Source: an uncultured Rhodopila sp.
GTDB lineage: Bacteria > Pseudomonadota > Alphaproteobacteria > Acetobacterales > Acetobacteraceae
Direction of reading: 5' to 3'
Length of the DNA: 64,000 nucleotides
Assembly: GCA_903932145.1 (NCBI GenBank)
Contig: CAIZFE010000003.1
Span: 62,001-126,000, forward strand
Shown: piece by piece, positions 1,529 to 5,518 of the stretch
Layout of the letters: the number at the start of each line of letters is the position of its first letter
How positions within the stretch are numbered: position 1 is the first letter of the stretch
Made by a program: the position numbers and the translations under genes
The notes under the pieces: generated by a model
Databases searched by the model: none
What the model was told of the DNA's origin: nothing
The model's input: only the letters and a program-made list of their open reading frames with translations

Positions 1529-1918
1529 TCAGGCGCCGGGTGCCCGAGACTTTTGATCAGCCCGTCGCAATGCTATTGTAACGGCTCCGAGCAGAGAATT
1601 GCCCTCAAACGGTTTGCTGAGGCGCGGCGCGCGCTGGCAAATTGCCGGAACCGCGAGGCCGGCCCCGAATGCGGTCAGCAGAACGAATGGTATGCCGCGA
1701 GCGTGCAGAATTTCGGCGACCGGCCAGACATAGATGCCAGGACCCAGGTTCACATCAAGGACAGCCGCGTCGATCTGTGTCGTTTGGGCGAATGTCATCG
1801 CCAAGGCCAGATCATCCGCCGGGCCGACGACGGTATATCCGCCGTCTGTCAGTACATCCTCAGTATGAAGGGCGATCATGGCGTCATCTTCAACCAACAG
1901 AATGCGGTGACCGGTCAT
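1529..1918 (-). CDS. single-domain response regulator (CheY-like receiver)
   Basis: The 129 residues form one receiver domain and nothing else. The acidic pair (LLVEDD) is at the start, the phospho-acceptor Asp sits in AAVLDVNLG, the Thr in LLTAFGA and the Lys in LSKPF. There is no output domain, so it probably acts by protein contact or as a phosphate relay, as is common for partners of HWE kinases. Its ATG overlaps the stop of the PYP gene upstream in the ATGA arrangement (1915-1918), so the two are translationally coupled. It is the last gene of the kinase-PYP-receiver cassette. Confidence 0.9.
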   Translation of the reverse strand: MTGHRILLVEDDAMIALHTEDVLTDGGYTVVGPADDLALAMTFAQTTQIDAAVLDVNLGPGIYVWPVAEILHARGIPFVLLTAFGAGLAVPAICQRAPRLSKPFEGNSLLGAVTIALRRADQKSRAPGA

Positions 1919-2310
1919 GCTCCGGTGTCAGCCGCCTGCCGCTGGATGAACATCCAACTTCCACCGTCCGTCGCGGCCTGGACACGCACCGTGAGTGCAC
2001 GGTCGCGGTCGCTGAAATCGCCGACAAAGGAAAAAGCGATGTCGAGGGTACCAGCCGCAAGCGCGCGATCGATCCGCCCTTTGAACGACGGGTTATTCAT
2101 GCAAGGTGCGATATCGACGAAAAATTGCCGCCCCTGTGTTGGCCGCGCTTTACGGCCGGATTGCTGAGCTTCGGTCCGATTGTAGACCCGCACCGTGCCC
2201 TCCGCATCGAGGCCGATCACCCCGAACGGCAATCTATCGAGGTCCGCGGGCGTCAGCGCCTCTATCGCGTCCGCAAGCCGCTCAGTTTCAAACTCCGGCA
2301 AAGAAATCAC
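1915..2310 (-). CDS. photoactive yellow protein (PYP)-family blue-light sensor
   Basis: The protein is 131 residues long, close to the 125 of classical PYP, and aligns along its whole length with an offset of one residue. Chromophore-site residues are kept: Tyr43, Glu47 and Arg53 correspond to PYP Tyr42, Glu46 and Arg52, and Cys70 in FFVDIAPC corresponds to the Cys69 that binds p-coumaric acid. Thr50 is conservatively Ser51. Further matches are LPFGVIGLD near the N-terminus and the closing SWMFIQR. PYP is a cytoplasmic PAS-fold photoreceptor. No tyrosine ammonia lyase or p-coumaroyl-CoA ligase gene is nearby, so the chromophore would have to come from elsewhere. The gene sits between an HWE kinase and a receiver and overlaps the receiver by 4 bp. 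Photochemical activity is inferred. Confidence 0.85.
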   Translation of the reverse strand: MISLPEFETERLADAIEALTPADLDRLPFGVIGLDAEGTVRVYNRTEAQQSGRKARPTQGRQFFVDIAPCMNNPSFKGRIDRALAAGTLDIAFSFVGDFSDRDRALTVRVQAATDGGSWMFIQRQAADTGA

Positions 2311-2450
2311 TCTCGGTCCTTAAGGAAAATATTAATCTGTTACATTTCAAGATAGAGAAAACTTCACGATTTTAACGTATCTGCAAGTGGCTCCTGCGTC
2401 AAACGGCACTGCCGGCCCAGAAATAGGGCGCGTGTCGACCGCCAGCAGGC

Positions 2451-4319
2451 TCAATTCGTATAACCGTCGTAAACCACGATCCCGACGAGATGTGTCACCA
2501 CATTGTCTCCGGCGGCAGACAGCGGCACCAACAGACGCTCAAAAGTCAGAGGATCGCCGTCGCCGAAGTCGAACCGGAGCAACTCGTGTGTCGGTTGGGC
2601 CTGCCGGGCACAGCGTTGATAGGCTTGTATCAGGCCGTCGGGGTCTTCATCCGTGTGATCCCGCACCTGGAGCGGACGGCCAAGTTGTTCGATCAGCGCG
2701 TGTCCGACCTGAACGAAGCGAACGGTGTTATCATCCTCGACCACCGCGATGGTCAGCGCGCCGGTCGCCGCGAAACGCGACCAATCGAAACCGGATAATG
2801 CCGGCAACGCGCGGTCAACATCCTGCCTATGCGACCAGGTGTCGTAGAGCGAGCGGACGATCTCACTTTTGATTTTTCGCCTCACGGGCGATTCGATGAT
2901 GATCGAGCCGAACCGCTCCATAGGCGCGGTGAGCCGGTAGCGAAAGCCGGACTGCGTGTATTCCAGCAGCGGCTTGCAGTTGAATTCGGTTCCAGCGACC
3001 CGTGCAATCAGCGTTGTGCCAAAACCTGTATGGGTTGGCGCAACCGCTGGCGGGCCGCCCGCTTCCCGCCAGTCGAATTGAAACTGCTGCTGACCAGGCA
3101 GGCCGGCGATGCCCCAGGTCAGGAACACCTGGCCATCCGGCACCGATAGTCCCCCATATTTCGCGGCATTGGTCGCCAGTTCGTGGGTGACCAATGCGAA
3201 GGTTTGCGCGGCCTTGACCGTCAGCACGATGTTGGGACCATCGAGTTGAGCCCGTGCGCCAAACGCGCCCAGTTCATTTCGTAAGATCTTGTCCAACGGG
3301 GCACCGTCGAATGCCTCATTCGTCAGGGCATCATAGGTTCGCGATAAGGCATGCAGCCGGCCACTGAAGGCTTGTCTTGCGTCGGGAAGGGTGCGCTCAC
3401 CCGACAAGCTGCGGCTGGCAATCGATTGGATCACCGCGAGCAGGTTCTTGCCGCGATGGGCGAGTTCGAGCAGCAACGTGTGCCTTACGTACTCGGCCCG
3501 CTTGCGTTCCGAGATATCCGAGACCACGGCGATGAAATAGTCGATCCCGCCATTGGCGGTCCGGACGCAACTGGTGGTAACGGAGGCCCAAATCTCCGTT
3601 TTGTCGGGGTGCAGGAAACGTTTTTCCACACTGTAGGAGTCGATGCCGCCGGATCGGATGACTTCGAAATGCGCCCGGTCGGCGTCGATATCGGCCGGAT
3701 GGGTGATGTCGAACCAGGTCATGGTTCGCAGCACCGACGCTGAATAACCGGTCATCCGAGCCAGGCGGTCGTTGACCCGCAGCCATTGTCCGTTGGGGGC
3801 GATTTCGGCGATACCGACGGCCGCGTTTTCAAACATCGCCCGGAAGCGTTTGTCGCTGGCCCGCCGGTCGTCGTCCGCCTGTTTCAGTAATGTAATATTC
3901 TGGTGAGAGACAATAGCACCGCCATTGCCGGTCCGGGACAGCGATGCCACGGTCATCAGAAACCATCGTTGTTCCGTTGGGGAATGACAAGCATATTCCA
4001 GGGTGAACTGCGGCAGTGTCCCGTCCAGGACACTGCTGATACCGAGAAAGGCCCGCATCGATTCCGCATCGGTCGCGGCGGCATCGCGGCAGACCGCCAG
4101 ATAGTCCGTTCCAGGACCAATTGCGGGACTGGAGCCAACGATATTGTCGGCGGCGAAGGTCAGCCAAGCCTGATTGACAATGGTTATCCTGCCGCTTTTG
4201 TCCAGGATGGCAATATTTGCCGGCTGGACGGCGGGATCAGCTTCGCTTGTCCATGCGGGTTGAAACGGTCGCTCCGCGGATAGCTGAGCATGATCGGCAG
4301 GCGGCGCGGGCATCGACAT
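2451..4319 (-). CDS. PAS-PAS-HWE histidine kinase with C-terminal PAS-like domain
   Basis: This 622-residue protein has no membrane segment and should be cytosolic. Two PAS domains come first (about residues 30-145 and 155-280, the second with GYSASVL and ISERKRAE). The HWE/HisKA_2 phosphoacceptor region follows, with its His in LAHRGKNLLAVIQS near residue 288. The ATP-binding part shows an N-box (HELATNAAKYG) and the W-x-E motif (FDWREAGGPP) that names the family. The last 140 residues look like a PAS_5 domain (ERLLVPLS). HWE kinases often respond to light or stress. The gene is followed after 140 bp by the PYP gene and then the receiver, all in one direction, which suggests one signalling unit. 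Direct PYP-kinase contact is an inference. Confidence 0.9.
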   Translation of the reverse strand: MSMPAPPADHAQLSAERPFQPAWTSEADPAVQPANIAILDKSGRITIVNQAWLTFAADNIVGSSPAIGPGTDYLAVCRDAAATDAESMRAFLGISSVLDGTLPQFTLEYACHSPTEQRWFLMTVASLSRTGNGGAIVSHQNITLLKQADDDRRASDKRFRAMFENAAVGIAEIAPNGQWLRVNDRLARMTGYSASVLRTMTWFDITHPADIDADRAHFEVIRSGGIDSYSVEKRFLHPDKTEIWASVTTSCVRTANGGIDYFIAVVSDISERKRAEYVRHTLLLELAHRGKNLLAVIQSIASRSLSGERTLPDARQAFSGRLHALSRTYDALTNEAFDGAPLDKILRNELGAFGARAQLDGPNIVLTVKAAQTFALVTHELATNAAKYGGLSVPDGQVFLTWGIAGLPGQQQFQFDWREAGGPPAVAPTHTGFGTTLIARVAGTEFNCKPLLEYTQSGFRYRLTAPMERFGSIIIESPVRRKIKSEIVRSLYDTWSHRQDVDRALPALSGFDWSRFAATGALTIAVVEDDNTVRFVQVGHALIEQLGRPLQVRDHTDEDPDGLIQAYQRCARQAQPTHELLRFDFGDGDPLTFERLLVPLSAAGDNVVTHLVGIVVYDGYTN

Positions 4320-4621
4320 GTCTTCCGATTAACGGGCGATGCCCATATTTTTATTTTGGTATCATATGGATATTGCCGTATCGCAATGTGCGGGTTACCT
4401 TCCGCCGACCCGGGGACAATAGCAAGCTGTTTGTTCCCCTGTTCGTCACCGTCGGGCGCGCCTTTTCTGAGTGGATGAGAGCTGATCCGGTTCAACCAGA
4501 TCGTGGTGCGGGCTGGCCATTGGCTGGCGCAAGAGACTCCGGTTGACGTTAAGGCTGAAGCTTGGACGTTTACGCCATTACCCGCTACGGTTGTGCAGCC
4601 GCTTTGGCGGAGCTTGAATCG
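4320..4621. other. divergent intergenic region, kinase versus TTT receptor remnant
   Basis: About 300 bp separate the divergent start of the histidine kinase from the broken TTT receptor. Its first half is more AT-rich (around 4340-4400) and should carry the kinase-cassette promoter. No RNA gene, terminator or convincing conserved ORF is visible. No clear operator palindrome was found by eye. Confidence 0.4.
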
Positions 4622-5518
4622 ATGCGACGAACCCTACGCGCAGGCTGTCTGCTGTTGGCAGTGGCTGGTCTGTGGTCGGCATCGGCGCAGGCGGTCTATC
4701 CGGACCGGCCGATCCATTTGGTCGTTCCGTTCGCTCCCGGCGGGGGTGTCGATGTCATCGCGCGGCTGGTCGCACATCGGCTTGCGGAGCGTATCAATCA
4801 GGCCGTGATTGTGGAAAACCGGTCCGGAGCCGGGGGAAATATCGCCAATCAGTATGTGGCCCGAGCAACGCCCGACGGATACACATTGCTGATGGCGTCA
4901 CCGGCCGCGGCGGTGTTGTCCAGCACGATGCTGTTGGTTGTCGCAGCCGACAGTCCCATTCACGACGTGCGGGATCTGATCGCCCGGGCGCAGGCGAAGC
5001 CCGGTGTCTTGAATTACGCCTCGGCCGGTGTTGGCAGCAGCGAGCATCTGGCGGGGGAATTGTTCGGACAGATGGCGGAGATAACGGTGGTGCACATGCC
5101 GTATAGGGGGAGCGGCCTGGCCATGAACGATCTCCTCGCCGGACAGGTACAGTTCATGTTCGGTGGTGCGGCGGGGCTTCTGCCGCAGGTTCAGGCCGGG
5201 CAATTGCGGGCGCTGGCGCAGACCGGCAAAACGCCACAGCCGGACATGCCGGATATTCCGACGATGGATCAGGCCGGCGTTCCCTAATATGATGTTATTA
5301 TCTGGAACGGTGTGATGGCGCCGAAGGGGACACCGCCCGGGATCATCGAATTTCTCAATACCGGGATTTCCGCCGCGGCGAACGATCTCGCGCCTCGATT
5401 CAATGCCCTCGGGGGGCAGGCGATGACGATGACGCCGCGGACATTTCGGGCAGTGATCGCCGACCAGATCGCCAAGTGGGCGGCGGTGATCGAGAAGGTC
5501 AATGTCCATGCCAACTGA
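4622..5518 (+). pseudogene. tripartite tricarboxylate transporter (Bug/TctC) receptor, broken
   Basis: The frame encodes a signal peptide (MRRTLRAGCLLLAVAGL...ASAQA) and clear Bug-receptor motifs: YPDRPIHLVVPFAPGGGVDV, ENRSGAGGNIA, VHMPYRGSG and MFGGAAGLLPQVQAG. Two lesions are seen. An in-frame TAA at 5285-5287 falls right after DQAGVP, and the same frame then continues as YDVIIWNGVMAPKGTPPGII to a normal C-terminus. In addition, about 25 codons that normally follow the TLLMASPAAA strand are missing. The first 221 residues alone would lack the second lobe. Its end overlaps the MmgE/PrpD start by 17 bp, so it once fed that operon with a carboxylate receptor. A sequencing error cannot explain both lesions easily. 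Confidence 0.85.

Follow-up and report, generated by a model that had tools for sequence, protein, structure and literature searches.

We analysed a stretch of 64,000 nucleotides, here called the window, from an uncultured Rhodopila sp. of the family Acetobacteraceae (assembly GCA_903932145.1, contig CAIZFE010000003.1, positions 62,001 to 126,000), in which three genes sharing one direction on the minus strand encode an HWE histidine kinase, a homologue of photoactive yellow protein (PYP) and a stand-alone receiver. This triad had been pointed out by an earlier reader who saw the letters alone (the sequence-only reading), and as an observation it is confirmed; the interpretation given with it, that PYP serves a soluble kinase as its input, is partly supported. 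The best part of the finding is absent from that reading: the terminal ~145 residues of the kinase are a divergent PAS_5 domain, whose relatives recur upstream of pyp in other genomes. The features are the following:

2451..4319, minus strand: HWE histidine kinase of 622 aa, with PAS domains, HWE core and C-terminal PAS_5-like domain
2454..2936, minus strand: PAS_5-like C-terminal domain of the kinase, proposed PYP contact (from the profile, the predicted fold and homologues upstream of pyp)
3234..3467, minus strand: HWE_HK dimerisation/phosphoacceptor domain, kinase residues 285-362
1915..2310, minus strand: PYP homologue of 131 aa with a GTG start (sequence and fold matches, aligned pocket)
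2182..2184, minus strand: codon of Tyr43 (Tyr42 of H. halophila PYP, by alignment)
2170..2172, minus strand: codon of Glu47 (Glu46, by alignment)
2101..2103, minus strand: codon of Cys70 (Cys69, the site of chromophore attachment, by alignment)
1915..1918, minus strand: ATGA in which the PYP stop and the receiver start overlap, as in R. globiformis and a Beijerinckiaceae genome
1529..1918, minus strand: stand-alone receiver of 129 aa (PF00072, 30.4 bits; LDVNL and SKP kept)

The PYP homologue matched the NCBIfam model TIGR02373 with an E-value of 3.5e-27 and 94.9 bits, below the curated cut-off of 143; the same model matched about 20% of the PYP homologues in Xing 2022 (PMC9664959; this and the other papers are cited from parts of their text). 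Its closest solved relative by sequence is 1mzu, the PYP domain of Ppr (E 1.2e-22), and the first 40 Foldseek rows for its AlphaFold2 model (pLDDT 86.2) are all PYP or PYP-derived. Residues Tyr43, Glu47, Ser51, Arg53 and Cys70 align with Tyr42, Glu46, Thr50, Arg52 and Cys69 of the H. halophila protein, and the pocket of Tyr, Glu and Cys, with serine in place of Thr50, is thereby borne out as it had been described. By its equivalents of Cys69, Glu46 and Tyr42, its family sequence and its predicted fold, the protein belongs to the PYP family. It is the one PYP found in the 6.66 Mb assembly, the other match being weak (E 0.08, 43 residues).

In the kinase, HWE_HK is called at residues 285-362 (PF07536, E 7.1e-20, 72 bits, cut-off 22.8) and PAS_4/PAS at residues 158-274, and a core similar to NF052306 extends over residues 237-466 (E 3.8e-40, below the cut-off of that model). 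The receiver matches PF00072 at E 4.6e-7, its 30.4 bits lying just above the cut-off of 30.2, and its LDVNL (acceptor Asp) and SKP (Lys) motifs are, by eye in an alignment, retained across the three triad receivers. The PAS-PAS-HWE-PAS_5 architecture given by the sequence-only reading therefore holds for its HWE and PAS parts, but Pfam calls no PAS_5: PF07310 has no match on the window's own domain, even at E 1. The domain is found by a profile (A1) of 15 PAS_5-like domains encoded upstream of pyp, with eight invariant columns; without both HWE-type rows, the window's and that of its nearest relative, the profile still recovers the window's domain at E 9.2e-33. PF07310 matches seven of the 15 rows (the window's not among them), with 4.6e-5 as the best value, and two small Rhodovibrio proteins encoded upstream of PYP match profile A1 at about 1e-29 and PF07310 at 44 and 40.3 bits (cut-off 22). 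Since it is linked to the PF07310-matching members by the profile only, we call the window's domain PAS_5-like and not a member of PAS_5. A PAS fold is predicted for it (pLDDT 81.5), and a Pfam scan of the profile rows gave no match to any enzyme family.

A search for the triad in related genomes, proposed as a check by the earlier reader, found it complete in two, R. globiformis (59% identity to the window's kinase, 70% to its PYP and 55% to its receiver) and a metagenome-assembled genome (MAG) of the Beijerinckiaceae, another family (52%, 59% and 43%, respectively). In these two, kinase and PYP are separated by an antiparallel gene that by eye is XRE-like, with a helix-turn-helix (R. globiformis L032:8140-8650, Beijerinckiaceae L104:3540-4000), where the window has only a gap of 140 bases.

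Upstream of the pyp genes of relatives it is mainly the last ~145 residues of the kinase that recur, the remaining kinase being different. In a draw of 397 genomes of the family, PYP (threshold E 1e-6) was found in 40. At all 13 of 13 loci (L033-L044, L046), the stop of a kinase or of a small PAS_5 protein overlaps the candidate PYP start or lies no more than 55 bases from it. The chassis beside the relatives' PYP is mostly a HisKA hybrid kinase and at times a small protein: nine upstream proteins scanned (E 1e-6) included one HWE kinase, that of R. globiformis at L032; among the remaining eight, HATPase was called six times, a receiver five times and HisKA four times, with a 204-residue protein left without a call. 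HisKA, HATPase and receiver domains are all present in the upstream proteins of Azohydromonas, Skermanella and a Hyphomicrobiales MAG, and that of the Beijerinckiaceae MAG is an HWE kinase. The receiver is a separate gene in the HWE-type triads and is located inside the kinase, before PAS_5, in most others. There are three PAS_5-PYP modules in R. globiformis: in one of them PAS_5 belongs to an HWE kinase, in another to a HisKA kinase, and in the third it is the 204-residue protein. This protein, directly upstream of PYP (L034:7622-8233), is by eye hydrophobic at its N-terminus, which may serve as a membrane anchor. The notion of PYP as an input to a soluble kinase is strengthened by this pattern of neighbours, but has to be amended, as the recurrent element is PAS_5 plus PYP and the HWE kinase is one chassis among several.

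Profile A1 gave 28 matches in 20 of the 397 family genomes (nine candidates were scored per genome, and weaker ones may be missed), of which 15 are the profile's own rows and adjoin PYP by construction. Two flank the PYP of one genome (G204), where a PAS_5 remnant of 39 positions is located upstream and a complete gene (1591 aa) with a PAS_5 tail begins about 260 bases downstream; in another genome (G369) the PAS_5 match is at the edge of one contig and PYP at the edge of another. Independent of the construction of the profile is the result from 385 genomes of the class: apart from the window's own (169 bits), a single match exceeded 100 bits, and PYP lies directly downstream of it; the other 28 of the 30 class loci read scored 87 bits or less and lack a PYP within about 1.5 kb. 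Species genomes, when scanned, gave 29 named PYP loci, with the domain upstream in 15, a contig edge in one and no domain in 13; eight of these 15 are profile-row records and seven are new (L104, L112, L114, L115, L117, L119 and L120, the last with a broken PYP frame), belonging to Beijerinckiaceae, Rhodopila, Azohydromonas, Skermanella, Rhodovibrio (two) and Hyphomicrobiales. No relative of the window's PYP was confirmed in viral contigs. Two PYPs are enclosed by long open frames (431 and 290 aa), which were considered as PAS_5-PYP fusions and rejected, the frame being merely open upstream of the start; a fusion is also countered by the kinase ending before or at the PYP start.

A PYP tree was made of 84 full-length rows and two solved ones, with 13 fragment rows left out. 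Among the 84, PAS_5 lies no more than 700 bases upstream in 22 (one of them, L012, counted by the 39-position remnant), 57 are without it and five are cut by contig ends. All 22 PAS_5-linked rows fall into one group of 26 (support 98/94, in a tree of few columns with weak inner forks and a bootstrap not fully settled), together with one contig-cut and three PAS_5-less rows, and outside this group the domain is found upstream of none of 54 rows, which represent 53 genes as G024 is present twice. Over 21 pairs, the distances between PYPs and those between PAS_5 domains are correlated (Spearman 0.74, with none of 2000 permutations as high).

Glu46 and Cys69 are kept in 22 of the 22 PAS_5-linked PYPs, and position 42 is Tyr in 18 and Phe in four; a loss of Cys70 or Glu47 in close relatives, which the earlier reader had named as evidence to the contrary, was thus not seen among the PAS_5-linked relatives. 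Arg53, also listed there as a pocket residue, does align with Arg52, but arginine occupies this position in three of the 22 and is not conserved in the group. Ser is found at position 50 in 20 of 22, and in the cited literature Ser50 accompanies 432-434 nm in two measured PYPs, from which a similar absorption maximum would be predicted for the window's PYP. Position 96 is Gly in 18 of 22, as opposed to Phe or Leu in the 60 other rows, and Met100, present in 47 of these 60, is missing in all 22. This methionine was proposed to catalyse re-isomerisation (Xing 2022, PMC9664959), and with all 22 lacking it a slow recovery of the dark state would be expected for PAS_5-linked PYPs.

The three PAS_5-less members of the group are without both Tyr42 and Glu46 (His and Arg in L107, Ile and Ala in L049, Leu and Ala in L058), and two of them have also lost Cys69. 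These two, L049 (G258) and L058 (G076), have Ser or Trp in its place, and their genomes also hold intact PAS_5-linked PYPs; judging from these residues, they are candidates for a new, non-chromophore role.

Because PAS_5 stays beside PYP as the type of kinase and the arrangement of the receiver change, we think it somewhat probable that PYP is an input protein in its own right, which acts on a portable PAS_5 'socket' carried by the kinase. Direct observation covers the order of the genes, the identity of their domains, the association of PAS_5 with PYP in different genomes and the agreement of this association with an intact pocket. The pairing of PYP with PAS_5 is drawn from the genomic association, and physical binding, a chromophore, control by light and the direction of phosphate flow are inferred. 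PYP would be a separate light-input subunit with a p-coumaroyl-type chromophore on Cys70; light would bring it into a signalling state that alters its contact with the C-terminal PAS_5-like domain of the neighbouring kinase, the altered contact would shift HWE autophosphorylation, and phosphate would pass from the HWE kinase to the co-translated receiver. PAS_5 would serve as a portable docking module, placed in relatives on HisKA kinases or on a small protein of its own, beside its own PYP, and the chromophore would be supplied from outside or through an enzyme not dedicated to PYP. The joint claim, that a PAS_5-like 'light socket' is dedicated to stand-alone PYP, that the pocket decays once the socket is lost and that the chromophore is scavenged, may be correct, although we would put its chances at rather below even.

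A number of observations weigh against the socket reading. PYP does lie between kinase and receiver, as first described, and its ATGA overlap of four bases with the receiver is confirmed, but the kinase and PYP genes are 140 bases apart in the window and about 490 in R. globiformis, so that this junction is not coupled. Ten of the 28 family matches are without adjoining PYP, four of them in genomes without any PYP match, and the PAS_5-like domain is therefore not exclusive to PYP. Loss of PAS_5 and loss of the pocket coincide on two branches only, and a Paracraurococcus PYP (G271), split over two contigs and hence among the fragment rows left out of the tree, has an intact pocket with PAS_5 absent upstream, its genome having PAS_5 matches elsewhere; Fisher's test of pocket loss against neighbour loss gives p 0.0004 without G271 and 0.0015 with it, where p counts sequences and not events. 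The correlation of PYP and PAS_5 distances can be produced by co-inheritance alone. Finally, the source genome has no match to PF00221, to which the ammonia lyases for tyrosine, phenylalanine and histidine belong, and hence no tyrosine ammonia lyase (TAL), an absence that the earlier reader had named as counting against the reading; and for the PYP-type ligase model TIGR02372 its best value is 51 bits, among weak AMP-binding matches (cut-off 334.7). PYP-less PAS_5-like kinases or short proteins are located at L092-L094, L096, L097 and L099-L103.

Another possible explanation is mere co-inheritance, in which the kinase senses a ligand of its own, PYP has the receiver or something else as its target and PAS_5 is an internal sensor unrelated to PYP. 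It would account for the ten PAS_5 domains without PYP and for the overlap of PYP in the triad with the receiver and not with the kinase, and also for a Sphingomonadaceae MAG in which a receiver begins behind PYP at the contig end, with neither kinase nor PAS_5 in the 6 kb upstream. However, PAS_5 is constant beside PYP as kinase type and receiver arrangement vary, and it reappears in other families, and we regard this explanation as unlikely.

Dedicated chromophore genes elsewhere in the genome, for which the sequence-only reading had suggested a search, are rejected on the PF00221 and TIGR02372 results given above. Of the 33 genomes of the genus, 31 are without PF00221 (none of the 23 good ones has it), as are the other three Rhodopila PYP carriers of the family draw, and a member with unassigned substrate is present in 28 of the 40 family PYP carriers. 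The cut-off of TIGR02372 is exceeded in six of the 40 carriers and at least 245 bits are reached in 18; the four Rhodopila carriers remain at 97 bits or less. With at least 245 bits in three of 14 genomes having a PYP of the PAS_5-linked group, as against 15 of 26 other carriers, and with a ligase match adjoining a PAS_5-linked PYP only in G086, the group has mostly parted from dedicated chromophore genes, its pocket being kept. The genome has 25 AMP-binding genes, of which 20 were scanned against NCBIfam at strict E-values; two belong to the benzoate-CoA ligase family, over the cut-off, and no p-coumarate-named family is among the families shown for the 20. With neither an aromatic ammonia lyase nor a PYP-type ligase, the chromophore would be scavenged or external, made through an enzyme not dedicated to PYP, or different. 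As to the neighbourhood, the earlier statement that chromophore genes usually lie beside pyp is not supported: a 2025 survey (PMC12826048) gives TAL for 5% and p-coumaroyl-CoA ligase (pCL) for 32% of pyp operons, so that their absence there is common rather than odd.

Were the cell unable to make the chromophore, PYP might feed the kinase via PAS_5 without sensing light through p-coumarate, by another thiol ligand or a redox signal on Cys70, or as an apo-protein. The lack of PF00221 in most genomes of the genus and of strong ligase matches in its four PYP carriers, the absence of Met100 in all 22 linked PYPs and the glycine at position 96 in 18 of them would be in line with this, and redox sensing was proposed for some Cys69-less PYPs (PMC9664959). 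Yet a new ligand would hardly preserve Glu46, Cys69 and Tyr or Phe at position 42 in 22 of 22, uptake of p-coumarate is considered possible in Dohmen 2025 (PMC12826048), and the two genes of the benzoate-CoA ligase family could activate an aromatic acid; on this evidence, signalling without light seems to us improbable. The scarcity of dedicated ligases in the group would also fit a further role for PAS_5, binding p-coumarate or p-coumaroyl-CoA and helping to load PYP in place of the missing genes. Small-molecule binding is frequent among PAS domains. The domain, however, matches no enzyme family and sits on kinases, and such a loading role is in our view highly implausible.

If the socket reading is correct, PYP signals by heterotypic docking of PAS on PAS, with the socket borne in some cases by an HWE kinase, in others by a HisKA hybrid kinase or a small protein, and light sensing would be coupled to p-coumarate from outside, e.g. 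from plants. Dohmen 2025 (PMC12826048) describes the signal chain of PYP as 'an important gap in knowledge', and a candidate partner of ~145 residues makes the old question of its signalling partner directly testable; it would connect the structural dynamics of PYP with the output of a single-domain PYP, and could be used as a modular light input for kinases.

The genes flanking the triad are, by eye, molybdopterin-oxidoreductase-like, ArsC/Spx-like and a tripartite-tricarboxylate-type receptor, and are apparently unrelated. The receptor gene, upstream of the kinase at window positions 4562-5518, has an in-frame stop at 5285-5287, past which similar-looking sequence continues in frame, and looks by eye like a pseudogene.

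PYP-kinase operons are already known (Xing 2022, Dohmen 2025), and the link with PAS_5 is new with respect to the cited parts of these papers. A literature search, with most subscription journals outside its scope, found no publication linking PAS_5 with PYP (both words occur in unrelated passages of PMC10468136) and no paper joining R. globiformis and PYP. With the single-domain PYP family of H. halophila and others (Xing 2022, PMC9664959; Dohmen 2025, PMC12826048) the window's protein shares Tyr42, Glu46 and Cys69, the predicted fold and the single domain; it differs in lacking Met100, in having Gly at position 96, in its tie to PAS_5 and in a genome without TAL or PYP-type pCL. The published pyp operons with an upstream histidine kinase or in histidine kinase/response regulator neighbourhoods (Dohmen 2025, Table 2; Xing 2022, legend of Fig. 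4B) have the same layout, kinase upstream and receiver nearby, but a C-terminal PAS_5 is not named in the cited parts, and HWE kinases appear in Table 2 of Dohmen 2025 only in fused proteins. In LOV-type blue-light-activated HWE kinases (NF052306) the core is similar, whereas here the match is confined to residues 237-466 and the receptor is a separate PYP. Ppr of Rhodospirillum centenum, which has the nearest solved PYP by sequence, likewise uses PYP as an input to a kinase, but as a PYP-phytochrome-kinase fusion, whereas the window's PYP is separate and without phytochrome. A precedent for the proposed socket is MopJ of Caulobacter, a single-domain PAS_5 protein that was pulled down with the kinase DivJ (PMC4432633): in both cases PAS_5 would act by contact with a two-component system, with no PYP in the MopJ system as cited, and with PAS_5 here forming the tail of the kinase itself.

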